DNA of 64,000 bases from Thermocoleostomius sinensis A174 (GTDB taxonomy: Bacteria; Cyanobacteriota; Cyanobacteriia; Elainellales; Elainellaceae). The stretch covers positions 2,333,026-2,397,025 of the forward strand of contig NZ_CP113797.1 in NCBI RefSeq assembly GCF_026802175.1, written 5' to 3'. The notes beneath the pieces are model-generated. The model saw only the letters and a program-made list of their open reading frames with translations, did not search any database and was not told where the DNA came from. Of the stretch, positions 18,540-30,531 are shown piece by piece (the stretch's first letter is position 1; each line of letters opens with the position of its first letter). The translations under genes and the position numbers were made by a program.

Positions 18540-18721
18540 TGCCAAATCTCTGGAAGCTGTTGAAAAAGTATAAAGGATTATGCTGTTGTCGATATCGGCT
18601 TCTGCCCCCAGAGAACTTACGATAAAGTTCCGAGGCGAAGTGAGTAGGGGCACTTAGGATTCGGAGGATTTCACGTTATTCTGGACATGGCAAAACCATG
18701 ACGGGATATGGAGACAGCGAC

Positions 18722-20383
18722 ATGCAGACAGTCGATGAAAAGATTAGCCCCCTTGCAGGCAAGCCTGCCCCCGCCGATAGCTTGATTGACGTTGCCAAGC
18801 TGTTGCAGGAATACTACACCATTCATCCTGAACCAACCAACCCCCTACAAAAAGTGAGCTTTGGTACGTCAGGGCATCGAGGTTCGGCTGCCAACGGCAC
18901 ATTCAACGAAGATCACATCCTGGCTGTGTCGCAAGCGGTGGCAGAATATCGTCGCAGCAAAGGCATTGATGGGCCACTATATATGGGGATGGATTCCCAT
19001 GCCCTTTCCGGCCCTGCCCAAAAGACGGCTTTGGAAGTACTAGCAGCACACGGCATTGACGTCTACATGGCTCCGACAGAGGGCTACGCGCAGTATACTC
19101 CTACCCCGGTTGTGTCTCATGCCATCTTGACCTATAACCAAGGTCGAACCAACGGCTTAGCGGATGGCATCATCATCACGCCCTCCCACAACCCTCCGAG
19201 TGACGGTGGCTTTAAGTATAATCCATCCTCTGGTGGCCCAGCAGACCCCGAAATCACGAAATGGATTCAGGAACGGGCCAACGAGTTGATGGCAAACGGC
19301 AATAAAGAGGTGCAGCGGATGCCTTATGAATCGGCACTGAAGGCTTCCACCACGCACATTTATGACTACATCACGCCCTATGTGAATGATCTAGAGACCA
19401 TTATTGATCTCGAGGCGATTCGGACAGCCGACATTCGCATCGGGGTTGATCCGCTCGGTAGCTCTAATATTGCCTACTGGGAGCCGATCGCCAATCGATA
19501 TGGACTCAACCTGACCATTGTCAATCGCACGATCGATCCCACCTTCAGCTTCATGACCGTAGACTGGGACGGCAAAATTCGCATGGATTGTTCTTCGCCC
19601 TACGCTATGGCTAGCTTGGTGAACGTGAAAGACGACTATGATATTGCTTTTGGCAACGACACCGATTCCGATCGCCATGGGATTGTTACCCCCAGCGTGG
19701 GCTTAATGAACCCTAATCATTTTCTGTCGGTGGCCATTCGCTATTTGTTCACCAGTCGCGCCAATTGGCCAGCTAATAGCGCCATTGGGAAAACCCTTGT
19801 CAGTAGCAGCATGATCGATCGGGTGGCGAAGGACATTGGGCGACAACTCTGCGAAGTGCCAGTTGGCTTCAAGTGGTTTGTAGCAGGACTATTGGATGGC
19901 TCCTTTGGGTTTGGGGGCGAAGAAAGTGCAGGAGCTTCCTTCCTGCGGAAAAACGGCACGGTTTGGACGACCGACAAAGATGGCATCATCATGGATCTGC
20001 TAGCGGCCGAAATTACGGCTAAAACAGGCAAAGATCCAGGGCTACATTATCAAGACCTGACCGATCGTTTGGGCAAACCATATTACACCCGCGTAGACTC
20101 GCCAGCTTCACCCGAACTAAAAGCCAAGTTGAGCAAGCTCTCTGCCGAAGACGTGAAAGCATCAACGCTAGCAGGAGAGCCAATCACGGCCAAATTGACC
20201 AAAGCCCCTGGCAACGATGCGGCGATCGGCGGCTTGAAAGTCACCACCGACAATGGCTGGTTTGCTGCTCGCCCGTCTGGGACTGAAAATGTTTACAAGC
20301 TGTATGCTGAAAGCTTTAAGAGCGAGGAGCATCTTAGCGCAATCATCACCGAAGCCGAACAGATTGTCAGCAGTGCCATGTAG
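18722..20383 (+). CDS. pgm: Phosphoglucomutase, glucose-specific
   Basis: The 553-residue enzyme interconverts glucose 1-phosphate and glucose 6-phosphate in the cytoplasm, linking glycogen and sugar-nucleotide metabolism to glycolysis. Motifs are [19 protein letters not shown] at the N-terminus, the phosphoserine loop [15 protein letters not shown], the metal loop NDTDSDRHG, the sugar loop [10 protein letters not shown], and the phosphate loop [16 protein letters not shown] at the C-terminus. These match the alpha-D-glucose-specific Pgm type. The open frame begins at 18698, but the ATG at 18722 has GGAG eight bases upstream and better fits the family length. Confidence 0.95.
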
Positions 20384-20581: not shown

Positions 20582-22519
20582 TCAGCCCAAATACGACTTC
20601 ACATCCTCTAGTGTGCCCTCTGCTTCAATTCGTCCATCGCTTAGCACGATGATGTGATCGGCATGATGCAGAATGGTAGGGCGGTGGGACACGACCAGAC
20701 AAGTAGGGTTCCAAGCTCGATCGACCTTCGAGGCTGAATTTACAGATGAGGACAGTCCAGGCGTTCGCCTGGACAAAAGGCGAGACCACAATTGCGCCTC
20801 GGTGTTCACATCCAATGCACTAGAAAGATCATCAAACACCAGTAATTCCGATCGGCGCACAAACATCCGTGCCGCTGCTGCCCGTTGTAACTGTCCGCCA
20901 GACAGCCGCATTCCTTTTGGACCCACTGCGGTTTCTAATCCATGTGCCATCGTTGCCAAGTCAGCATCAAACACGGCTAACTCGATCGCCTCTTTTAAGG
21001 ACGTATCATCCCGATGCAACCCCAGTAGCAAATTCTCCCGAAGCGTATGGCTAAACAATTGCGGCACCTGTGGTGTATAAGCACTGCGGGGCGGCACAAA
21101 AAAAGTAGCCGGATCGAGAACCAACCGTTGATTCCAATAGATCTCCCCTGCCTGCTTTGGTAATAATCCTAACAACACCCGCAATAAAGTCGTTTTGCCT
21201 GAGCCAACTCGTCCCGTAATCACCGTCAAGCTACCGCGCTTCAGGGTGAAATGAATATCAAAAATACCGCGATCGGGCGATCGAGCAGCAGAGTAACGAT
21301 AGGTGAGATTTGTAACCACCAGTTCTTGCAACGGCAATGTCTCGTCTTCGAGGGGTTGATCTAGAGGTGGCAACCCAGGAGAACGCCCCCACAGATCGTT
21401 GAGATAAAGTGGTTCAGGAGCAACAAGTGCCAGGTCGGAAGTTGTATCTTTTTGGGTATTTGGTTTAGTTAACACTGTATCTTGACTAGGAGAGGGGTGA
21501 TTGCTTTGCGATGGTTGAAAAGAATTATCTGCTGTAATCAACGCAGTCATCCGCTCAAAGGATACTTCCGTTTGCTTTGACAATGCCAAAAAGCCACCGA
21601 GGTACCACAAAAACTCGGTCACAAAAGACAGATAGTAAACGAATAAGGCAAAATCTCCAACGGTTAGCGTTGCCTCGCCCCTCGCCAGAAATTGAGCCGC
21701 GATCAACAGAATTAGCCCTGTACCTACATTGACCAAATTTTCTAGAACGGAATTTAGTAGAGCCGTGAAAACGTGATCGCGTACCATCACTTGGCGGCGT
21801 TGCTCGTTTAGTTGTCGCAAGCGATCGAGCACAGCGACTTCAGCCCCAGCTACCTGAATCGCTTGGATGGCATTAAACATTTCACCGATGTGCCCCGTCA
21901 CTTGCTGCGTGGCTTGGCGGCTAACCCGACGATAGTTTTTAATGCGCAGTTCGGCTCGTTGGACAATTGCAGCAATCGCCACTAGTGGCAAAACCACAAA
22001 CAGCGTCAATTGGACATTCACGCTCATGAGAATCAGCAGTGATATAACGGCAAATACGCCATTACCAAACACTTCATTGGTTCCCACCACATTGTCTTCA
22101 ATTTGAGCCGCATCTTCTCGAAAAAAGCTGATCACTTCACCTAGTGCAACAGGTTTGCTGTGATTGGGTAACACTAGCGGTTGTGCTCCAGGACGCCGTA
22201 GCAACTGAGCGAGTAAGTTGTGCTGCAACAGGGAACTCATGGTGAAGCGATGCTGCGTTTTAGTAATACGTCCAATAAAAATGGCAACGATGCGGGCCAA
22301 ACCTGTGGCAATGAAAAGAGCAATTAGGGCGATTGGTGATAGATTTAATTGAGATTCACCAGTGAGCGTATTGAAGAAGGCTTGAATGATTAACCCAGGA
22401 ATGGCAGGCAACCCCATAATAAACATCCACAGGAAGCTATCTAGTAAATACAGCTTCAGGGCATAGTGAATCATGTGCCACAGCAGTTGCCAGATCGGGA
22501 CTCGATGAGTAGGGGTCAT
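20582..22519 (-). CDS. ABC exporter, fused permease and ATPase
   Basis: The 645-residue type IV exporter half-transporter has about six membrane helices in residues 1-310, then an unusual ~85-residue Ser/Pro/Asn-rich linker. The ATPase domain follows, with Walker A GRVGSGKTTLL near 435, the LSGGQLQRAAAARM signature near 538, and Walker B LLVFDDLSSALD, ending VVSHRPTILHHADHIIVL. It would act as a dimer in the plasma membrane, exporting a lipid, peptide or small molecule. It is divergent from the GH3-type gene, 297 bp away, which hints that it moves the product of the neighbouring enzymes (inference). Confidence 0.9.
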   Translation of the reverse strand: MTPTHRVPIWQLLWHMIHYALKLYLLDSFLWMFIMGLPAIPGLIIQAFFNTLTGESQLNLSPIALIALFIATGLARIVAIFIGRITKTQHRFTMSSLLQHNLLAQLLRRPGAQPLVLPNHSKPVALGEVISFFREDAAQIEDNVVGTNEVFGNGVFAVISLLILMSVNVQLTLFVVLPLVAIAAIVQRAELRIKNYRRVSRQATQQVTGHIGEMFNAIQAIQVAGAEVAVLDRLRQLNEQRRQVMVRDHVFTALLNSVLENLVNVGTGLILLIAAQFLARGEATLTVGDFALFVYYLSFVTEFLWYLGGFLALSKQTEVSFERMTALITADNSFQPSQSNHPSPSQDTVLTKPNTQKDTTSDLALVAPEPLYLNDLWGRSPGLPPLDQPLEDETLPLQELVVTNLTYRYSAARSPDRGIFDIHFTLKRGSLTVITGRVGSGKTTLLRVLLGLLPKQAGEIYWNQRLVLDPATFFVPPRSAYTPQVPQLFSHTLRENLLLGLHRDDTSLKEAIELAVFDADLATMAHGLETAVGPKGMRLSGGQLQRAAAARMFVRRSELLVFDDLSSALDVNTEAQLWSRLLSRRTPGLSSSVNSASKVDRAWNPTCLVVSHRPTILHHADHIIVLSDGRIEAEGTLEDVKSYLG

Positions 22520-22643
22520 TCCTTAGCCTATTAAATGAGAGTAATTATCAAATGTTTGCGATCGAGCGTCAATGGTATCTCCCCTATCTCTGATCTCTCT
22601 TCCTGCTTTCGTTAACCTCTAGATGCTTTTAGGACGTTGGGTT

Positions 22644-22763
22644 CCCGACAGTTTCTGACAAGTTTCCGACAGTTTATTTTGTGTCTACTCGCGGCTTGCA
22701 TTAGTCCATTCTTCTACTACGCTTTTTTAGTATTAAACGTATAAAAACCTGGTAAAAACCTAG
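22644..22763. repeat. Short tandem motifs between divergent ABC and GH3 genes
   Basis: Three imperfect copies of GACA(A)GTTT run in tandem at about 22644-22676 (CCGACAGTTTCT, GACAAGTTTC, CGACAGTTTATT). An 11-bp pair TAAAAACCTGG / TAAAAACCTAG lies at about 22742-22763. They occupy the shared promoter region and could be binding sites or simple slippage products. Confidence 0.45.
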
Positions 22764-22816
22764 AAGTTTATGCCAGCCATTGCCGTGTGTTCCCCTTACT
22801 CCAAGTAATTCATCTC

Positions 22817-24517
22817 ATGTCCACGTTGATGCTATCGTTGGCGGCAGCGGTTTCTAAACAAGTCAAGACACGGTTTATTCGTCAAACTCATCACGCCGAA
22901 GCCGCTCAAGATGCTTTTTTGCGCACATTGCTGCAAGCACACTGCCAAACGGAGTTTGGACGTGAACTAGGGTTGGTGGACATAAAAACGATCGATCAAT
23001 TTCGCGATCGCGTCCCCATTTCTTCCTACAGCGACTACGAACCCTACATCGATCGCATTGCCAAAGGCGAGCGCAATATCCTGACTCCTGATCCGGTGAT
23101 TTACCTGAGTTTAACGAGTGGCTCGACTGGAAAGCAGAAGCTGATTCCGATTACGCCCCGATCGCGACGGTTTCGCAGTTACGTCAATCAAGTCAGTGCC
23201 GGATTCATTGCTGAAGCAGCCCAGCGTCATCAGCGCCCCTTGGGAAAAATGCTGTTGACTAGTTCGTTGCAATTGGTGGGTCACACCAGCAGCGGTATTC
23301 CTTACGGGCCCATCAGTGCGGGAGATTTACGCCTCAACAGCACGTTATATCGTCAAGTCTTTGCGCATCCATTTGATGCGCTGAAACCTGCCGATAGCTT
23401 GGCGCGTCATTATGTCTGCCTGCTATTTGCCCTTGGCGATCCCCAGACTCGCGTGATTGGGGCTAATTTCCCTGTGTTAGCCCTGAGATTAGCCGATTAT
23501 TTGGAATCCTATGCCGACGACTTGATTCACGATCTCGAAACGGGAGAAATTGCCTCCTGGTTAAAGCTAGAGCCGGAACTACGAGCCAAGCTAGAGCGAC
23601 GGTGGTTTCCCAACCCCAACCGCGCTGCCGAACTCCGGCATATTCTTAAAACTGAAGGACGTTTAACCCCGCGATCGGCTTGGAACTTGTCACTGCTTAT
23701 CACTGCACGGGGCGGCACATCTAATTTCTACTTTGAGCGCTTTCCCGCTTATTTTGGAAATACTCCAATTTTTGGCGGGCTATATGCCTCGTCTGAAGCC
23801 GCTTTCGGCAGCTATTACGACTTCAACCAAGATGGAGCCATTTTGGCGATCGATACTGGGTTTTTTGAGTTCATTCCCGAGGATCAGTGGTACGTTAGCC
23901 AACCTCAAACGGTGTTAGCTAGCGAAGTGATTCCCAGCCAATGCTATCGAATTTTAGTCACCAACTACAACGGGCTTTATCGCTACGACATTGGCGATGT
24001 GGTGGAAGTATTAGGGTTCTACAATCAAGCCCCCATCATTGTGTTTCGGCATCGCTTGGGCGGAATGCTGTCATCGATCACCGAGAAGACAACTGAATTT
24101 CACGTGATGCAGGTCATGCAACAACTTCAGCAAGAATTTCACGTCACGTTGGAAAACTTTTGTATCACCTTGTCTGAACAAGACATTCCCCCCCATTACT
24201 TGGTCAATATTGAACTTGCACCCGGATCGCTGTTACCAGATCCAGTCAGCTTTATTCACCAGTTCGATCGCCATTTGCAAGCCATTCATACCTCCTATGC
24301 TATTAAACGTCCCGATCAAATTCCCGCACCCCGTTTGCGCATTTTAGCCCCTGGTAGTTTCGCTATCCTTCGCCAACGGTTACTACAACGTGGTATTCCC
24401 GAATCTCAATTGAAGTTTCCTCACATCAGCAACGATCGACAGTTTCTAGCGGGATTGACAATTGAACAAGAGGTGGAGGTAGAAGAAGTTAAAGATGATT
24501 GGGCCAGATACTTTTAG
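22817..24517 (+). CDS. GH3-family acyl-adenylating enzyme
   Basis: The 566-residue protein has the three ATP/AMP motifs of the GH3 branch of the ANL superfamily: SLTSGSTGKQKLIPIT, then FGGLYASSEAAFG, then VTNYNGLYRYDIGDVVEVLGF. Plant GH3 enzymes adenylate an acyl acid (jasmonate, indole acetate) and conjugate it to an amino acid. Bacterial members are mostly uncharacterised. The ATG at 22817 is preferred to the GTG at 22787; neither has a clear ribosome-binding site. It is followed after 34 bp by the AspH/LpxO-type gene, so the two are very likely an operon. Activation of a carboxylic acid for amide formation is the expected chemistry. Confidence 0.88.
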   Translation: MSTLMLSLAAAVSKQVKTRFIRQTHHAEAAQDAFLRTLLQAHCQTEFGRELGLVDIKTIDQFRDRVPISSYSDYEPYIDRIAKGERNILTPDPVIYLSLTSGSTGKQKLIPITPRSRRFRSYVNQVSAGFIAEAAQRHQRPLGKMLLTSSLQLVGHTSSGIPYGPISAGDLRLNSTLYRQVFAHPFDALKPADSLARHYVCLLFALGDPQTRVIGANFPVLALRLADYLESYADDLIHDLETGEIASWLKLEPELRAKLERRWFPNPNRAAELRHILKTEGRLTPRSAWNLSLLITARGGTSNFYFERFPAYFGNTPIFGGLYASSEAAFGSYYDFNQDGAILAIDTGFFEFIPEDQWYVSQPQTVLASEVIPSQCYRILVTNYNGLYRYDIGDVVEVLGFYNQAPIIVFRHRLGGMLSSITEKTTEFHVMQVMQQLQQEFHVTLENFCITLSEQDIPPHYLVNIELAPGSLLPDPVSFIHQFDRHLQAIHTSYAIKRPDQIPAPRLRILAPGSFAILRQRLLQRGIPESQLKFPHISNDRQFLAGLTIEQEVEVEEVKDDWARYF

Positions 24518-24551
24518 CTTTTAGCCTGTTTAATCACACAGTGAGGAGTTT

Positions 24552-25307
24552 ATGAAAGGAATCCTACAAGAGAAACTAAACAAAATTGAAAGTATTCGCC
24601 CTGAGAAATTTGCTTTCGTTAAAAAGATAGAAGCCCTAGTTCCACACTATTCGCTGGTTGGCGATTCCGTGTTCTTTTCAAAGGACTATTTTCCGTGGGC
24701 AGAAGAGCTAGAAGCCAACTGGCAGGTCATTCGTCAGGAACTCGACCAAATTATGGTCTATGCCGATGCATTGCCCAACTTTCAAGACATTTCACCTCGG
24801 CAACACCGCATCTCGCCAGATAATCTGTGGAAAACATTTTTCTTCTGTGCTTTTGGCTATCGATCGCAAACAAACTGTGAGCGCTGCCCTGAAACGGCCA
24901 AGCTGCTACAAAAAATCCCCGGATTGAAGGTGGCCTTTTTCTCCATCTTGGCCCCTGGCAAACATATTCCTGAACATCGCGGCAAGCACAAAGGACTGAT
25001 TCGCTGTCACTTAGCCCTGAAAGTTCCTGAGCCTAAAGAAAACTGTTGGATTCGCGTTGCCGATCAGATAGCCCATTGGGAAGAAGGCAAAACCCTGTTC
25101 TTTGACGATACCTTTCCCCATGAAGTCCGCAACGATACCAACGATTATCGTGTTGTACTATTTCTAGACATTGCCCGGCCGCTAAAATTTCCGCTGTCAT
25201 TGGTGAACTGGCTTGTAAATAGTCTGGTTGGCATTTCGCCGATCGTTCAAGTTGCTAAGGGCAATCACGAAAGTTGGGAACAACAATTTGAAAAAATGCT
25301 GCGATAG
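24552..25307 (+). CDS. Aspartyl/asparaginyl beta-hydroxylase-type dioxygenase
   Basis: The 251-residue 2-oxoglutarate/Fe(II) oxygenase belongs to the AspH/LpxO family. The core reads HIPEHRGKHKGLIRCHLALK, then CWIRVADQIAHWEEGKTLFFDD, FPHEVRNDTNDYRVVLFLDI. The two iron-binding His residues (in RCHLAL and FPHEV) and the 2-oxoglutarate-binding Arg (in DYRVVL) are present. Relatives hydroxylate EGF-like domains (AspH) or the 2-position of lipid A fatty acyl chains (LpxO). The ATG has GAGG nine bases upstream, and the gene follows the GH3 gene by 34 bp. The substrate is unknown; an acyl chain or a conjugated amino acid is plausible. Confidence 0.88.
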   Translation: MKGILQEKLNKIESIRPEKFAFVKKIEALVPHYSLVGDSVFFSKDYFPWAEELEANWQVIRQELDQIMVYADALPNFQDISPRQHRISPDNLWKTFFFCAFGYRSQTNCERCPETAKLLQKIPGLKVAFFSILAPGKHIPEHRGKHKGLIRCHLALKVPEPKENCWIRVADQIAHWEEGKTLFFDDTFPHEVRNDTNDYRVVLFLDIARPLKFPLSLVNWLVNSLVGISPIVQVAKGNHESWEQQFEKMLR

Positions 25308-25391
25308 GGAAGCCGGGAACCGGAAAAAGGATTAGTGCCGGCGTTGCTGATCGAAACCAACCCCAATCCCTGATCCCCAGTTCCCCAATCC

Positions 25392-26597
25392 CTACTTCTT
25401 TGCCTGCGCCAAACTGACAAAGCTGGCAGCCGCTGCAATCACTCCAGCCGCATAAAACACAGGTGGCAAGCCAGCGTACTTCCAAATGGGACCCAAAATG
25501 ACAGGGGAAGCAAATTGCCCCAAGGAATTAAACCCCGTGCCGATCGCTAGCACGGTTGTTTTAGAATCTGCAGGGGATAGATCTGCTAGCTTATCGTAGA
25601 GATTAGGAGTGATGATGCCAAATCCGGCTCCAAACAAAATGGCGGTAGGGAGGATCAGATAAAGTTGGGTGAGGAAGGGAATCGTTACTAGGGTCATCGA
25701 CATGAGGCTGAAGCCAAATGCAATGGCACGGTTTCGTCCCATACGACGGGCAATGCGGCTGGCTCCAAACGCTGAAACGATCGCCGCTCCCACCAACCGA
25801 ACGGCTAGCACTAGGCCATTTAATTCTGGCTCTGCACCAATGGCTTGCTTTAAATACAGCGGTGTATAAATGACAACTGCATAGACAATCATGGCGGCTG
25901 CACCAATAAATAGGTACAGCGCGATGATGTTAGGATTGCGGAGCAGTTCTTGCAATTGCTGGGTCTGGTTGCCATCACCCAGAATGGAGGGCGATCGCCC
26001 CCGCCGCTCCCTCAAGCTGAAGGCAGCCACAACCGCCAGCGGCAGCCCCAGCCCATAAAGATAAAAAGCATACTGCCAACCCATACCCCCAGCCCAACCC
26101 CCCAATAGCGGAAAGAAGATTGCCGAGGTCGTCATGATACTGGTGGCATAGCCCAAAATTCGCGATCGAGCTTCTCCGTCATACATACCGCCCAGTAAGC
26201 CGATCGTTGCCGCCGCTACTCCACCGCTGGCTGCTCCCAACAGCCCACGACTTGCTAGCAACAGGGGCATGTGCGTAAAAAACGCCGTCGATACGCCAAA
26301 TACGGCATAAAGCATCAGGCAAGGAATCAACACTTTCAACTTACCGACGCGATCGGCCACAAGACCCATCAACGGTGTACAAAGTGCCGAGGTCAGGGCA
26401 TGAAGACTAACCAGGGTTCCGGCCCAGCGTGGATCAAGCTGAAGCTGCTGCACCATTTCGGGCAATACTGGAGAAACTACCCCACCTGTCATAGTGGTTA
26501 AGCAGCCGGCCGCCAACAAAATTAGAAGCTGCTGGCGGTGGTTCCAAGCAGCAGTTCTGAAGATTCCTGTTCGAGACGTTTTACCAACAGGGAGCAT
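25392..26597 (-). CDS. MFS transporter (multidrug/efflux type)
   Basis: The 401-residue protein has about 12 membrane helices. The cytoplasmic loop after helix 2 reads GLVADRVGKLKVLIPCL, the MFS motif A (G-x-x-x-D-R-x-G-K/R). The TTMTGGVVSPVLPEMVQQL first helix and the LLGAASGGVAAATIGLLGG fourth helix are typical of drug:proton antiporters. The open frame extends to a TTG at 26675; I prefer the ATG at 26597. It sits between the AspH-type and Rieske genes, on the opposite strand to both, which would suit export of their product (inference). Confidence 0.88.
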   Translation of the reverse strand: MLPVGKTSRTGIFRTAAWNHRQQLLILLAAGCLTTMTGGVVSPVLPEMVQQLQLDPRWAGTLVSLHALTSALCTPLMGLVADRVGKLKVLIPCLMLYAVFGVSTAFFTHMPLLLASRGLLGAASGGVAAATIGLLGGMYDGEARSRILGYATSIMTTSAIFFPLLGGWAGGMGWQYAFYLYGLGLPLAVVAAFSLRERRGRSPSILGDGNQTQQLQELLRNPNIIALYLFIGAAAMIVYAVVIYTPLYLKQAIGAEPELNGLVLAVRLVGAAIVSAFGASRIARRMGRNRAIAFGFSLMSMTLVTIPFLTQLYLILPTAILFGAGFGIITPNLYDKLADLSPADSKTTVLAIGTGFNSLGQFASPVILGPIWKYAGLPPVFYAAGVIAAAASFVSLAQAKK

Positions 26598-26944
26598 AAC
26601 CCATTTTTTCAAGAGTACTCCTACGATAGAAGACTGGGCTGAACTCTCTGTTCCGCCATAGGACAGTAATCGCAATCGGTGACGAGTGTCCTAGTCAAGG
26701 TGCAGTGGCGGTTTAGAACCAGATGCAAGAACTATTTCAAAATCTGGTACAGAAGAACAAAATCGCTTTAGCGGATGTCATAAAGATAGAGGTTATAAGA
26801 ATATCTTGAGAGTTTGTGAGATGCAGCAAGAATGAACTGTTCAGATGCATAAGGTTCGTAGTAAAGTGGCACACAGCCGTCTAGGGGACAGAACTTGAAG
26901 CGGTATTGTAAAGATCTCTCACGTTGGGTTTAGGTTAAGCATCG
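26598..26944. other. Divergent promoter region with inverted repeat
   Basis: About 350 bases lie between the divergent MFS and Rieske genes. It holds a 7-bp inverted repeat ACCAGAT (26718-26724) and ATCTGGT (26742-26748). No gene is visible. It is a possible shared control region. Confidence 0.4.
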
Positions 26945-28084
26945 ATGGAACTGGCAGTCACCCTTAAGAGTCAGACAATCCAGAACAAAGTTCGTGAGGT
27001 TGGTATTAATGAAAACAATTGGTATCCTGTCGCTTGGGCTAATACGCTAAAGCCAGGTGAAGTGATACCTGTGACAATTTGGCAAAAATCGATCGCCGTT
27101 TATCGAGACAATCACGGTCAGGTTCATGCCCTGGAAAATGCCTGCCCCCACAAAGGCATTGAACTGCATCTCGGCGAGATTCAGGGCGATCGAATTGTCT
27201 GTCCCTATCACGGTTGGGAATTTGATGGTGACGGTCAATGCGTCAACATTCCCTATTTCCCCAAGGAACAGAAGCTGCCATGCGCGCAGGCGCGTAGCTA
27301 TCCGGCAGAAGACCGTTACAGTGTGATTTGGGTGTTTCCGGGTGATCCAACCTTGGCAACCGAACGGCAAATTCCAGATGTGCCGGAATATGCTGATCCA
27401 AATTGTCTGATGATTCCCATCACGGGTGTATTCAGGGCGCATTTTTCCATCTGTAACGAAAACACTATGGATGTGTTTCATGGGTTCTTGCACAAAAACC
27501 TGCAAGGTTGGTTTGATCCAATCTTGCTGAAGTTGCAAGACGGTGATGATTTTGTCAAAGCTGATTATCGCGTCTCCTATCAGGGAATTCTCACCCGCTT
27601 TTTGGGGATCGATCGAGATGGATCAGGCGTAACCACTCGCACCGTTTCAATTCACTATCAATATCCGCACTACCACAGCACAATGGAAGGGGTGTCGTCG
27701 CTCTATTTGATGCGCTTGCCCGTTGGCCCAAACGAAACGCGATCGTTCTCGCTGCTATTTTTGCCCAAGATTCGCCTGCCAAAGTGGTTGCTTCGTACAA
27801 TCAAGCCAGTGATGGTTCCATTGGTGCGACGGTTCTTATTCATGCGGTTTTTGGAACAAGATGTTGGCATGATGGAAAGTGAACAGCGGACATATCGTGC
27901 TAACCCCAATCGCCGTTATGTAGAGGTGAACCCAGCGATTATCGCGCTTCAGCGAATAATTGTCCGGCAATATGAAACTTTTGTGCAACAATCTAGTCAA
28001 TCGCCATTTCATTCACAGCAGAGTTCACACACCTCTGCACCGATCGCTGGGTTGGCAACATCTGTTTCCACAGAGCGCGGTTGA
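26945..28084 (+). CDS. Rieske non-heme iron oxygenase
   Basis: The 379-residue alpha subunit belongs to a Rieske oxygenase. The [2Fe-2S] ligands are Cys67-x-His69 (ACPHKG) and Cys86-x2-His89 (VCPYHGWEFD). The catalytic domain has NENTMDVFHGFLHKN, which supplies the mononuclear-iron His residues and Asp. Such enzymes hydroxylate, demethylate or desaturate substrates with electrons from a reductase; none is encoded nearby, so ferredoxin is the likely donor. The C-terminal ~30 residues are Ser/Gln-rich and probably disordered. Its neighbours suggest a role in tailoring the product of the GH3/AONS enzymes. Confidence 0.9.
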   Translation: MELAVTLKSQTIQNKVREVGINENNWYPVAWANTLKPGEVIPVTIWQKSIAVYRDNHGQVHALENACPHKGIELHLGEIQGDRIVCPYHGWEFDGDGQCVNIPYFPKEQKLPCAQARSYPAEDRYSVIWVFPGDPTLATERQIPDVPEYADPNCLMIPITGVFRAHFSICNENTMDVFHGFLHKNLQGWFDPILLKLQDGDDFVKADYRVSYQGILTRFLGIDRDGSGVTTRTVSIHYQYPHYHSTMEGVSSLYLMRLPVGPNETRSFSLLFLPKIRLPKWLLRTIKPVMVPLVRRFLFMRFLEQDVGMMESEQRTYRANPNRRYVEVNPAIIALQRIIVRQYETFVQQSSQSPFHSQQSSHTSAPIAGLATSVSTERG

Positions 28085-28382
28085 CTCATGAGTTGTTGAC
28101 AAGCTGAATTGATAGAGCGATCGTTGGATGTGACTGTGGTGTAACTGTACCAATACAAATGTTTGAGGATTTCAATCTGTGGCAATCTGGTGAGTAAATT
28201 TTTTTGCATTGAGACTTCATAACTCAGTAGTGACGAAGTGACTCCAACAGTGAGGATATTGATCTTTATATAAGTCTGGCGATGGGCTTCGATCTGAATT
28301 GCTGTGCCTCGTTGAGATGGTTGCAGTTCAGTCACCAACGTAATCAGCGGTTTCAACGAACTTAAGGTGAGGGGAGTTTACT

Positions 28383-29669
28383 GTGCAAGTTGTCAAGGAA
28401 TACATTCAGCGCGTAGACGAAAACGGGCTTTTACCAGATGAGTACGTCTGCTATGCCAGACAAGGAAATCTGGTTGATATTGAAGAAGCAGCCACCAGCA
28501 CTCGTCGAACGGTTTTAACGTTTTGCACCAATGACGTTCTGGGGTTAGTTCAAAACAAAGCGGTTCAACAAGCTGCGATTGATGCCATCATGCAGTATGG
28601 CACGTCCAACAGCTCTACCGGCCCCCTCAGCGGTCGCATCGATCTGCATCGTCAGCTTGAGCGAGAAATTTCTGCCTTCAAGCATTTGCCCTACACTCAA
28701 CTATTTTTGAATGCTTGGATGGCGATGCAAGCGTTGATGGATGCCTTTTGTCATTTAGCCATTCCGGTGCCCGGGTTTCAAAATACTCGTGAGACATTGA
28801 TTCTAACGGATGTTTTAAATCATGGCTGTATTGTCTCCGCGCTGGCAAATGCCGGCAATCGATCGGGTAAGCTGTTTAGCCACAGTCCTCGTGTGCGGAT
28901 TCGTGCCTATCGCCATTGTGATATGGAGGATTTTGCTCGCAAGCTAAAGCGCTATGCCCGACCGGATGACCGGATCATGGTTGTTTCGGATGCGGTCTTC
29001 TCGATGGATGGTGACATTGCGCCATTGCCCGACATGATCGATATCCTGTCGAACTATGATGGCAGTGTGTTAGTGATGGATGAGGCCCACGCTAGCGGGG
29101 CGTTGGGGGCGTCAGGCGGTGGGATTTATGAGCACTTTGGGCTGTTGCCGCAGCAGGCGATCGAACGCGGTATTTCTCCGCTCATTATGACCACCTTCTC
29201 TAAGTTCGCAGCCTCGGCCGGGGCCGCCATCAGCAGCCATGTAGCCGAACTGATTCCCTTACTCAACTGTTCGCCGACCTCGATCGGCACCATTTCTTTG
29301 CCAGCGCCCACCACCGCCGCCGCCCTAGAAAGCATTCGCCAAGTGCGGCAGCATCCTGAATTGGTGCAGCGTCTCCAGGAAAATACCAAGTACCTCCGCG
29401 CGCTGCTGCTTGAACATGAGTTTGATGCGATCGGCGAAACCAATGTGATTCCTGTGATTTTGCCGCCCGAAATCAATCCCAAGTACTTCGCTCGCAAGCT
29501 GATGCATGATCATGGCATTTGGGTGTCACCAATCTGGTTTATTGCCAAGCCTCGTCTGCGCATCACCGCTAATGCGTTGCATACGAAAGATGAAATCGAT
29601 CGGTTGGTGGCGGGCATGGCTGAAGTACGCGATGCCATTTATAACAAAACTACGACCATTAGCGCCTGA
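28383..29669 (+). CDS. AONS-family PLP acyltransferase (alpha-oxoamine synthase)
   Basis: The 428-residue fold-type I PLP enzyme is of the family of 8-amino-7-oxononanoate synthase, KBL, ALA synthase and serine palmitoyltransferase. It has FCTNDVLGLVQNKAVQQAA, then the STGPLSGRIDLHRQLEREIS loop, VVSDAVFSMDGDIAPL, and MDEAHASGALG (Asp233 and His236 contact PLP). The PLP Lys is Lys274 in TTFSKFAASAG. Family members condense an amino acid with an acyl thioester. No biotin genes are near, so BioF is unlikely; an amino-ketone or sphingoid-type product is possible. It starts at a GTG with a GAGGGGAG-type site just upstream and follows the Rieske gene on the same strand. Confidence 0.85.
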   Translation: MQVVKEYIQRVDENGLLPDEYVCYARQGNLVDIEEAATSTRRTVLTFCTNDVLGLVQNKAVQQAAIDAIMQYGTSNSSTGPLSGRIDLHRQLEREISAFKHLPYTQLFLNAWMAMQALMDAFCHLAIPVPGFQNTRETLILTDVLNHGCIVSALANAGNRSGKLFSHSPRVRIRAYRHCDMEDFARKLKRYARPDDRIMVVSDAVFSMDGDIAPLPDMIDILSNYDGSVLVMDEAHASGALGASGGGIYEHFGLLPQQAIERGISPLIMTTFSKFAASAGAAISSHVAELIPLLNCSPTSIGTISLPAPTTAAALESIRQVRQHPELVQRLQENTKYLRALLLEHEFDAIGETNVIPVILPPEINPKYFARKLMHDHGIWVSPIWFIAKPRLRITANALHTKDEIDRLVAGMAEVRDAIYNKTTTISA

Positions 29670-29757: not shown

Positions 29758-30531
29758 TCAGGTCAACGTTGAGGAGCCAAAATCAGGGGGCACATCCTGC
29801 CAACGGCCTTGCCCCACGGCACGGATTGCTTCTTTCAAAGAAACCGCCCCCGTATATAAAGCCCGGCCGACGATCGCCCCCGTCACACCTAACGGCTCCA
29901 GCGACAAGAGGCTGAGGAGATCAGAGGTAGAACTGATGCCGCCCGACGCAATCACAGGAACAGCCACGGCACTGGCTAATGCGCGCAAAGCACCCTTATT
30001 GGGGCCTTGCAGCGTTCCGTCTCGGTGAATATCTGTATAAATAATGGCAGCCACTCCGGCGGCGGCCATTTGCTGAGCCAACGTTACGGCTTCAACGTCT
30101 GAGGTTTCCAACCAACCCCGAGTCGCTACCTTGCCGTTGCGGGCATCAATGCCTACCACAATTTGACCAGGAAATTCTTGGCACAGGTGCTCGACTAATT
30201 CCGGTTGCTCTACAGCCACGGTTCCCAAAATGACTCGACGCACGCCCAGCGCCAGCAGATCTGCCACGGCCGATCGATCGCGCAAGCCCCCCCCCACCTG
30301 CACAGGGATCTCAACCGATCGCACAATTGCCGCGATTGCCTGCTGGTTCACTGGGTGGCCAGCTTTTGCTCCATCCAAATCTACTAAATGCAGCCAAGTC
30401 GCGCCCTGTTCTGCCCATTGCTGGGCGACTGCCACCGGATTGTCATCAAACACCTGTGATTGCGCATAATCCCCTTGATACAGCCGCACACACTGGCCCT
30501 CTAGCAGATCGATCGCGGGAATAACATCCAT
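29758..30531 (-). CDS. hisA: HisA isomerase (histidine biosynthesis)
   Basis: The 257-residue TIM-barrel enzyme isomerises ProFAR to PRFAR, the fourth step of histidine synthesis. It has [22 protein letters not shown] (catalytic Asp8), VQVGGGLRD, the second catalytic Asp in [13 protein letters not shown], and [13 protein letters not shown] for phosphate binding. Length is normal. ATG start. It is encoded as a single gene, not with other his genes, as is usual in cyanobacteria. Confidence 0.96.

Follow-up and report, generated by a model that had tools for sequence, protein, structure and literature searches.

The closest described systems are the ceramide pathways of Caulobacter and E. coli BL21, which consist of spt, aca/bCerS (= yghO), epi/CerR, acpR and aasR; a dedicated AcpR and AasR encoded beside spt are a feature of the Rhodobacteria ceramide pathway. 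PMC9386255 pairs E. coli YghO with Caulobacter CC_1154 as its counterpart, and CC_1154 is one of the genes needed to form dihydroceramide. Two cyanobacteria are reported to contain sphingolipids, and a 2022 paper states that no cyanobacterial sphingolipidome or genetic basis had yet been reported. Lipidomics of Nostoc punctiforme in the same paper, the one cyanobacterium so examined in the literature consulted, showed no sphingolipids, the only reported AOS of this organism being BioF-like.

Here we describe a locus of Thermocoleostomius sinensis A174, lying in an analysed stretch of 64,000 nucleotides of contig NZ_CP113797.1 (the window), that an earlier note on this DNA had put forward as a candidate undescribed pathway. 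No prior description of the cyanobacterial gene set was found in searches of an open-access library, and within that scope the term is fair for the set; its core, however, represents a version of a bacterial pathway already described. Judged from the sequence, the window probably (at roughly 60%) holds most of a divergent Spt-bCerS-CerR-like pathway that would yield an N-acylated, hydroxylated long-chain-base (ceramide-like) lipid.

Gene content and order of the locus

All six open reading frames were confirmed at the coordinates and in the families that the earlier note had given them, as was their placement between two housekeeping genes, phosphoglucomutase and hisA. The genes of the locus, and two further genes of the same genome, are as follows (window positions unless marked C1).

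18698-20383: phosphoglucomutase, one flank of the locus
20582-22519, minus strand: ABC exporter (P0001), an adjoining gene judged to lie outside the system
22787-24517, plus strand: GH3 acyl-adenylating amide synthetase (P0002) with three GH3 Pfam domains, the proposed conjugating enzyme
24552-25307, plus strand: 2-oxoglutarate-dependent Asp_Arg_Hydrox protein (P0003), AspH/LpxO/OlsC-like, a proposed acyl-chain 2-hydroxylase
25392-26675, minus strand: MFS transporter (P0004), a proposed exporter
26945-28084, plus strand: Rieske [2Fe-2S] oxygenase (P0005), a proposed lipid hydroxylase
28383-29669, plus strand: alpha-oxoamine synthase (AONS, P0006) of a distinct cyanobacterial clade, proposed to be Spt-like and to form a long-chain base
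29758-30531: hisA, the other flank of the locus
C1 774335-775462 (matched stretch): GNAT of the YghO/bCerS family, in the window's genome, outside the window
C1 777463-778407: SDR, putatively of the CerR/epi kind, in the window's genome, outside the window

The GNAT and SDR genes lie about 1.6 Mb from the AONS in this genome, and both had been overlooked in the original gene list. A promoter and terminator scan gave values near those of shuffled sequence (9 against 8.9 and 11 against 8.1) and was uninformative.

Among 98 genomes analysed, 54 carry both the AONS and a Rieske gene of the window type, and in 50 of them the two are no more than 3 kb apart, a grouping in excess of chance. In a set of named genomes made up of the best 80 of 168 matches, the Rieske gene is immediately upstream of the AONS on the same strand at 63 of the 75 loci with sufficient upstream DNA, and Rieske, AONS, GNAT and SDR follow one another as one run at 21 of the 80. 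An Aphanothece locus (L161) carries the complete set, that is, the run of four plus GH3, AspH and MFS, as does a locus of Nostoc sp. WHI (L188), where a cupin replaces the MFS. Within the same best 80 of 168 matches, 59 loci extend more than 8.5 kb upstream of the AONS; an MFS gene of the window's kind is present at 30 of these (28 MFS members were found across 26 of 61 loci), and an ABC exporter copy of at least 45% identity is present at none, so the ABC exporter was rejected as a member of the system. The conserved group is made up of the GH3, AspH, MFS, Rieske and AONS genes; of the two exporters originally listed, only the MFS protein is conserved with the group.

Co-occurrence in the 98 genomes was counted on a strong-match class for each protein, picked by hand from the match listings. 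For the AONS this class comprises matches of about 70% identity or more (some AONS match occurs in 94 of the 98, the rest being mostly weaker paralogues), for the Rieske protein those of at least 47% (some match in 86 of 98), for GH3 those of at least 50% (some match in 54 of 98; G092, at 32%, was left out), and for AspH those of at least 50% plus a broken copy in G034 (some match in 53 of 98). Counted in this way, the AONS is present in 58 genomes, the GNAT in 56 and the SDR in 57, with mismatches among the three limited to G020, G024 and G029 (78, 85 and 69% complete). Across 31 families, GNAT and SDR are both present in 13 of the 13 families with the AONS and in none of the 18 others (p 4.8e-9), and the contrast persists within f13 and f16, two families of mixed composition. 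Family-level association with the AONS was also seen for GH3 (Fisher p 9e-8), Rieske (6e-6) and AspH (0.008). GNAT and SDR are no more than 5 kb apart in 38 of 56 genomes, and GNAT and AONS no more than 15 kb apart in just 11 of 56. That the genes of the window are on different strands and in different transcription units might suggest chance neighbours with no joint function, but adjacency and co-occurrence are conserved over 13 families while other neighbours vary, and for AONS, Rieske, GNAT and SDR the idea is already contradicted; we regard it as extremely improbable.

By sequence match the GNAT is a homologue of the YghO/bCerS-family N-acyltransferases, and by co-occurrence and gene order it is linked to the AONS. 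When E. coli YghO was used as the query, this GNAT was the one match in the window's genome (E 5e-45), with none else up to E 10, and a representative GNAT (L082) matches YghO at 28.8% identity with 98% of the query covered. In the reference locus L231, the Spt adjoining yghO exceeds an NCBIfam SPT cut-off (600 against 500 bits). Proteins of the YghO family also occur away from AONS genes: a Diaphorobacter stretch (L236) has one with no AONS annotated, and 44 plasmid records contain a YghO-family protein (E <=1e-5), but 4 plasmid records an AONS match to P0006 (E <=1e-30). The SDR shares only 21% identity with the E. coli enzyme, and its assignment is contextual; the SDR of a Streptomyces operon finds it as best match in the window's genome (83.6 bits, the next at 39.6). 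We also considered a hopanoid or sterol pathway, hinted at by an HpnA/SdmB-like SDR and an SdmA-like Rieske protein. HpnA is, however, the best NCBIfam model for both the E. coli ceramide-cluster SDR and that of the window's genome, so HpnA likeness cannot separate a hopanoid or sterol reading from a ceramide one. The product had been guessed to be a hydroxylated amino-ketone, sphingoid or N-acyl compound, and the linkage of the AONS to a YghO/Aca homologue and an SDR, operonic in many genomes, both supports and sharpens that guess.

The alpha-oxoamine synthase clade

The AONS orthologues are 71-88% identical (73-87% across the 20 named genomes aligned) and form their own long-stem clade with support of 100/100, positioned outside the BioF (99/98), KBL (100/100) and SPT (97/96) clades. 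The best tree pairs this clade with KBL at a support of 35/0, and sister positions to the SPT clade (AU p 0.39), to BioF (p 0.52) and to PKS-AONS (p 0.46), our own putative label for AONS domains within very large ORFs, were likewise not rejected. The tree holds 14 AONS rows of 41 fetched, one duplicate (L227) having been dropped; L239, L256, L253 and Ec_BioF are long branches of unsure placement, and the row cyPara_L237 is a Nonomuraea fragment, non-cyanobacterial despite its label. Against three SPT models the AONS scores 171, 147 and 97 bits, reaching none of the cut-offs (640, 500 and 670). In a scan of the window's genome with the last of these, SPT-alpha, two other AONS proteins score higher (230.8 and 145.5 bits, against 95.1 for this one), and its cut-off is reached in 0 of 14 control genomes, which marks the model as strict.

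The top NCBIfam model for the AONS is BioF, at 221 bits or about half the cut-off of 426, and a BioF-clade row also gives the top pairwise BLAST score in the set compared (177 bits, followed by a Rubrobacter AONS at 167 and a Bacteroides SPT at 157). Taken with the unrejected BioF position and the KBL pairing of the best tree, these scores could indicate that the AONS is a mere variant BioF or KBL of biotin or threonine metabolism with incidental neighbours. However, its scores are far below the cut-offs of both families (for KBL, 154 against 493 bits with TIGR01822 and 183 against 460 with NF005394), both clades exclude it, and it is constantly linked to Rieske, GNAT and SDR. Moreover, 13 of the 58 genomes with the AONS, among them that of the window (99.98% complete), show no match to BioB (E 1e-20), so a role in biotin synthesis is unlikely. 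In 11 of these 13 no protein exceeds 400 bits for BioF; of the 45 carriers in which BioB does match, 40 have a protein above 400 bits for BioF, the remaining five being G029, G032 and G034 (68-83% completeness) and G038 and G066 (partial matches). Model scores, clade exclusion and the pattern of BioB and BioF absence led us to judge BioF or KBL identity very unlikely. The earlier note had set such an identity against its own proposal; the AONS lies outside both clades and far below the model cut-offs, with a BioF sister position not rejected, and on this point the proposal therefore stands.

The PLP lysine and the adjacent His/Asp are conserved in the AONS clade, which also carries two clade-specific insertions. 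Since the clade is separate, on a long stem, and has these insertions, its amino-acid partner may differ, and the AONS could use cysteate, alanine or glycine to build another backbone (sulfonolipid-like or 1-deoxy), an amino-ketone that the same GNAT and SDR would acylate and reduce to a lipid that is sphingolipid-like, not a ceramide. Co-occurrence with GNAT and SDR fits a non-serine backbone equally well, and cysteate acyltransferase is among the solved structures matched (100.1 bits, one entry), but the top match among solved structures is serine palmitoyltransferase (149.5 bits), no gene for cysteate synthesis was noticed in ten recurrent neighbour families, and we consider a non-serine backbone rather unlikely. 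The predicted AONS structure (mean pLDDT 60.9, 21 sequences) was too weak for a fold search.

Candidate tailoring enzymes and the proposed route

The Rieske family retains C-x-H...C-x2-H in 35 of 35 members and N-x2-D-x2-H-x3-H in 32 of 35, and the top NCBIfam model for P0005 is SdmA (232 bits, matched across almost the entire length; cut-off 600). P0003 matches Pfam Asp_Arg_Hydrox at 177 bits and, among NCBIfam models, OlsC at 260.9 bits (cut-off 450, not reached) followed by LpxO at 126.1 (cut-off 500). The GH3 N, M and C domains are all present in P0002 (275, 84 and 79 bits), for which OlsH is the sole NCBIfam model matched (83 bits; cut-off 620, not reached); on plasmids GH3 has three matches, one with more than 80% query coverage. 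One GH3 and one AspH motif pattern matched only some members and were not used.

Strong-match GH3 is present in 52 of the 58 AONS carriers against 1 of the 40 non-carriers, and AspH in 40 of 58 against 1 of 40, although AspH is restricted to 5 of the 13 AONS families. A distance of 15 kb or less separates GH3 from the AONS in 21 of 52 genomes (counting the best copy per genome plus some second copies) and AspH from the AONS in 14 of 40; among the named loci with more than 8.5 kb upstream (best 80 of 168), they are near the AONS at 21 and 12 of 59. Checked by neighbourhood, then, the genes are inherited together as a set, yet GH3 and AspH frequently sit in other parts of the genome, a scattering that partly tells against the grouping first proposed. 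It is possible, though doubtful, that two lipid modules share the neighbourhood, with AONS-GNAT-SDR-Rieske making one lipid and GH3-AspH independently making N-acyl amino acids (OlsH/OlsC-like lipids). The top models for GH3 and AspH point in this direction, as do the GH3>AspH pairs found apart from the AONS in seven stretches (L101, L102, L103, L110, L111, L116 and L117) and the lack of AspH in 18 and of GH3 in 6 of the 58 carriers. However, close homologues of GH3 and AspH are almost confined to genomes with the AONS (of the 40 genomes that lack it, one has GH3 and one AspH, in both cases G020, 78% complete), and both are part of the full cluster in Aphanothece and Nostoc sp. WHI (best 80 of 168). 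For the AONS part, the existence of two modules is compatible with the best explanation.

For the ceramide-like pathway that we favour, we infer all substrates, the step order and the final structure from what was directly observed: gene content, co-occurrence, gene order, GNAT-YghO homology, and the AONS and Rieske catalytic motifs. The AONS would join an amino acid, most likely serine, to a long acyl thioester, giving a 3-keto long-chain base that the YghO/bCerS-family GNAT would N-acylate; the SDR, putatively of the CerR/epi kind, would then reduce the keto group, and the Rieske oxygenase may hydroxylate the base or the chain. In a subset that includes the window's genome, the OlsC/LpxO-like oxygenase would 2-hydroxylate an acyl chain and the GH3 ligase would use ATP to attach an acyl or amino-acid moiety through an amide bond. 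The MFS protein would move the product. Several observations count against this route: the low SPT model scores of the AONS and the higher SPT-alpha scores of two other AONS proteins in the genome, the BioF preference of its model and pairwise scores, its position outside the SPT clade, the low identity of the SDR, the occurrence of YghO-family proteins apart from AONS genes, the distance of GNAT and SDR from the AONS in this genome, the limited spread of AspH over the AONS families, and the lipidomics of N. punctiforme.

More tentatively, the 58 of 98 genomes and 13 of 31 families with the AONS may share a widespread, unrecognised class of cyanobacterial lipids, hydroxylated, GH3-conjugated and ceramide-like, whose backbone AONS evolved separately and is not nested in known SPTs. 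If true, the AONS enzymes would gain another clade, one that follows substrate rules of its own. The gene set could serve as a genomic predictor of cyanobacteria that make sphingolipid-type lipids, such as Nostoc sp. WHI, with N. punctiforme a predicted non-maker if the set is absent there, and it supplies candidate genes for deletion. Rieske, OlsC-like and GH3 proteins would be added tailoring enzymes, not met in the accessible portions of the ceramide-pathway literature.

Relation to known systems

The putative tailoring enzymes each resemble a described family. OlsH, the GH3-like lyso-ornithine lipid synthetase of planctomycetes, shares with P0002 the use of a bacterial GH3 in lipid amide formation, but the low OlsH model score of P0002 indicates another subfamily. 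P0003 shares Pfam Asp_Arg_Hydrox with the OlsC/LpxO acyl 2-hydroxylases and has OlsC as its best model, at a score under the OlsC cut-off. SdmA, a Rieske 4-methylsterol monooxygenase, is the best model for P0005, again under the cut-off, and the context of P0005 is lipid-amine, not sterol.

The same AONS-GNAT-SDR order is seen in Rubrobacter radiotolerans and in Streptomyces sp. NBC_01001, in operons whose annotation names no pathway, and their GNATs are 35-37% identical to the cyanobacterial GNAT over nearly the full length; their AONS proteins fall inside the SPT clade, unlike the cyanobacterial AONS. As in the Caulobacter/BL21 pathway, the cyanobacterial set combines an AONS enzyme, a YghO-family N-acyltransferase and an SDR, often in one run. 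Neither AcpR nor AasR was noticed in ten recurrent neighbour families of the cyanobacterial loci. Unlike that pathway, its AONS belongs to a separate clade that scores far under the SPT cut-offs, and the set adds Rieske, OlsC-like and GH3 proteins.

Conservation and linkage of the gene group

All six genes that the earlier note had grouped as a candidate undescribed pathway (an ABC exporter, GH3, an AspH-type hydroxylase, an MFS pump, a Rieske oxygenase and an alpha-oxoamine synthase, AONS) were present at 20582-29669 of the window, with the families as claimed; the window itself is G000 C1 2333026-2397025, part of one 5.81 Mb contig of the A174 genome (G000). We searched 98 genomes, A174 and 97 relatives from 31 families, and found a close AONS ortholog, 71-88% identical and either whole or interrupted by contig ends, in 58 of them, covering 13 families. 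Counting only the strong-match class, with weaker paralogs excluded, the window-type Rieske gene was present in 54 of the 98 genomes, every one an AONS carrier, GH3 in 53 (52 being carriers) and AspH in 41 (40 being carriers). Rieske was found in 10, GH3 in 12 and AspH in 5 of the 13 AONS families, and each in 0 of the 18 families without AONS. The nearest named AONS relatives, among the matches listed, came from filamentous cyanobacteria: strain CCP2 (87%), Oculatellaceae Prado106 (84%) and Oculatella LEGE 06141 (83%).

In 50 of 54 genomes no more than 3 kb separated Rieske from AONS, and Rieske stood immediately upstream of AONS in 63 of the 75 named loci with enough DNA (best 80 of 168 AONS matches). 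The neighborhood co-conservation envisaged for the four enzymes held for this pair and, in a minority of genomes, for the other two: GH3 was within 15 kb of AONS in 21/52 genomes and AspH in 14/40, indicating that both are co-inherited with AONS but often sited elsewhere. Since many genomes are fragmented, these proximity counts are lower bounds. The ABC exporter had been included in the group, but no window-like copy (at least 45% identity) occurred in the 59 named loci with more than 8.5 kb upstream of AONS. A cupin_8/JmjC protein, absent from the window cluster, recurred in 11 of 59 named loci.

Partner genes outside the window

Mapping the genes of the window and 60 fetched stretches revealed two further genes downstream of AONS in several other families: one encodes a GNAT protein of ~383 aa, whose Pfam domain is barely above cut-off (21.1 vs 20.7 bits), and the other an SDR/epimerase of ~323 aa. 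The matched stretches in A174 are:

G000 C1 774335-775462, GNAT protein
G000 C1 777463-778407, SDR/epimerase

With GNAT in 56 and SDR in 57 of the 98 genomes, the distribution tracks AONS almost exactly, each being found in 13/13 AONS families and 0/18 others (p 4.8e-9). Genomes of the mixed families f13 and f16 that lacked AONS also lacked all the partner genes. The mismatches were G024 and G029, with AONS and without GNAT and SDR, and G020, with SDR and without AONS (85, 69 and 78% complete, respectively). In 38/56 genomes at most 5 kb separated GNAT from SDR, and in 11/56 GNAT was within 15 kb of AONS. Among named loci from the best 80 of 168 matches, GNAT was immediately downstream of AONS in 25 of 67, and Rieske>AONS>GNAT>SDR formed one run in 21 of 80. 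The order was GH3>AspH>MFS<Rieske>AONS>GNAT>SDR in Aphanothece sp. CMT-3BRIN-NPC111 and SDR<GNAT<GH3>cupin>Rieske>AONS>AspH< in Nostoc sp. WHI. The gene set is real and conserved, and bears out the earlier note in part; its decisive partners, GNAT and SDR, lie outside the window.

Between GNAT and SDR, A174 encodes a 526-aa B12-binding radical SAM protein under every NCBIfam cut-off (L127 7846-9426 = G000 C1 775845-777425), and the relative G001 has an IscB-like RNA-guided endonuclease gene (L128 8235-9410; 98 bits, cut-off 175). Recurrent neighbors of their own accompany both the GH3 copies distant from AONS (stretches L112, L113, L118) and the GNAT-SDR pair (L127-L145); behind the latter, judged by eye, are ABC ATPase-like, permease-like and flavin disulfide reductase-like genes.

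Placement of the AONS and proposed tailoring enzymes

In alignment, the AONS retains the PLP lysine (FSK), DEAH aspartate/histidine and stacking histidine, which we take to be catalytic. Two of these residue roles are also given in PMC8895605. Two insertions, each of ~11-12 residues, were present in 4/4 ortholog rows and 0/10 other rows aligned, and both hold residues invariant in 21 orthologs. In a 41-row tree the orthologs formed one clade (100/100), its stem measuring 2.7 changes per site, outside the SPT (serine palmitoyltransferase; 97/96) and 'PKS-AONS' (AONS domains inside very large ORFs; 100/99) clades. Membership in BioF or KBL, which the earlier note had raised, was not seen in this tree: the protein falls within neither clade (99/98 and 100/100). 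None of SPT, BioF and PKS-AONS was rejected as sister group (AU p 0.39, 0.52 and 0.46), and the best tree joins the clade to KBL with support of 35/0. The AONS scored under the cut-off of every curated model, and two other A174 AONS proteins outscored it with an SPT model. Its best pairwise scores were to a BioF-clade row (177 bits), then Rubrobacter AONS (167) and Bacteroides SPT (157).

A role in biotin synthesis was considered and fails on gene content, because BioB had no match in 13 of the 58 AONS carriers, A174 included, and 11 of these 13 were also without a BioF-model match above 400 bits; of the 45 carriers that do have BioB, 40 showed such a match. The lack of a BioB match in the 99.98% complete A174 genome suggests that this strain is unable to make biotin by the usual route.

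A further AONS domain in A174 (G000 C1 1178743-1179792) lies in a 2679-aa ORF, possibly a synthase fusion, and scored 230.8 bits with the SPT model, above the window AONS; similar large ORFs occur in relatives and have their own AONS clade.

The AspH-type protein was nearest to the OlsC model (261 bits, cut-off 450), with LpxO at 126 bits (cut-off 500). GH3 carries three of three Pfam domains, and its sole NCBIfam match was OlsH (83 bits, cut-off 620), an enzyme reported to use ATP in joining ornithine and fatty acids into lyso-ornithine lipid (PMC12493201). Most members of the Rieske family keep the motifs for the cluster and the iron intact. For the window's Rieske protein the nearest model was SdmA (232 bits, cut-off 600), and the nearest solved structures were SxtDIOX (99 bits) and SxtT (96 bits).

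A proposed route and known ceramide systems

E. coli YghO as query matched exactly one A174 protein, the GNAT, and the GNAT of a representative locus (L082) is 28.8% identical to YghO at 98% query coverage (5e-45). In the E. coli BL21 cluster, yghO (ECD_02850) is listed as the 'aca' acyl-CoA N-acyltransferase gene, the counterpart of Caulobacter CC_1154; Caulobacter dihydroceramide formation needs spt and at least four others (ACP, ACS, epimerase/dehydrogenase and acyltransferase), roles that the BL21 genes 'might' have (PMC9386255). On an E. coli PN43 plasmid record (L231), Spt is over an NCBIfam cut-off (600 vs 500 bits) and adjoins acyl carrier protein, epimerase, acyl-AMP ligase and yghO. 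Against GNAT specificity, Diaphorobacter L236 has a YghO-family protein with no AONS annotated nearby. Plasmid records numbered 44 with GNAT vs 4 with an AONS match, the AONS limit being stricter. Searched against A174, the Streptomyces SDR had the partner SDR as its top match (83.6 bits vs 39.6 for the next). HpnA, under its cut-off, was the best NCBIfam model for both the A174 and the E. coli SDR, but their direct identity is just 21%, so the reductase assignment leans on gene context.

The gene set is conserved and has a coherent reading. Most likely, AONS would form a keto long-chain base, which GNAT would N-acylate and SDR would then reduce; Rieske would hydroxylate the product, AspH would hydroxylate an acyl chain, GH3 would attach an amide-linked group and MFS would export the result. 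N-acylation ahead of reduction is one of two orders given in PMC9386255. We give this whole route a probability of roughly 60%: its genes are observed, and its chemistry is inferred from protein families.

Judged by title and abstract opening, none of the open-access papers listed by our searches covers the cyanobacterial gene set. PMC8895605 reports that Nostoc punctiforme had no sphingolipids and one AOS, which is BioF-like, and cites two previous accounts of sphingolipids from cyanobacteria, Scytonema julianum and Moorea producens, neither with a genetic basis. Spt-like proteins were reported for 38 bacterial phyla among Black Sea genomes (PMC11334938), a paper in which cyanobacteria are mentioned in a reference title. 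Rubrobacter and Streptomyces plasmids share the order AONS-GNAT-SDR, with a GNAT 35-37% identical to that of A174. Mooreaside A, a cerebroside with a C17 base, differs from the product proposed here, which would carry extra hydroxylations that mooreaside A, as described in PMC6272925, lacks.
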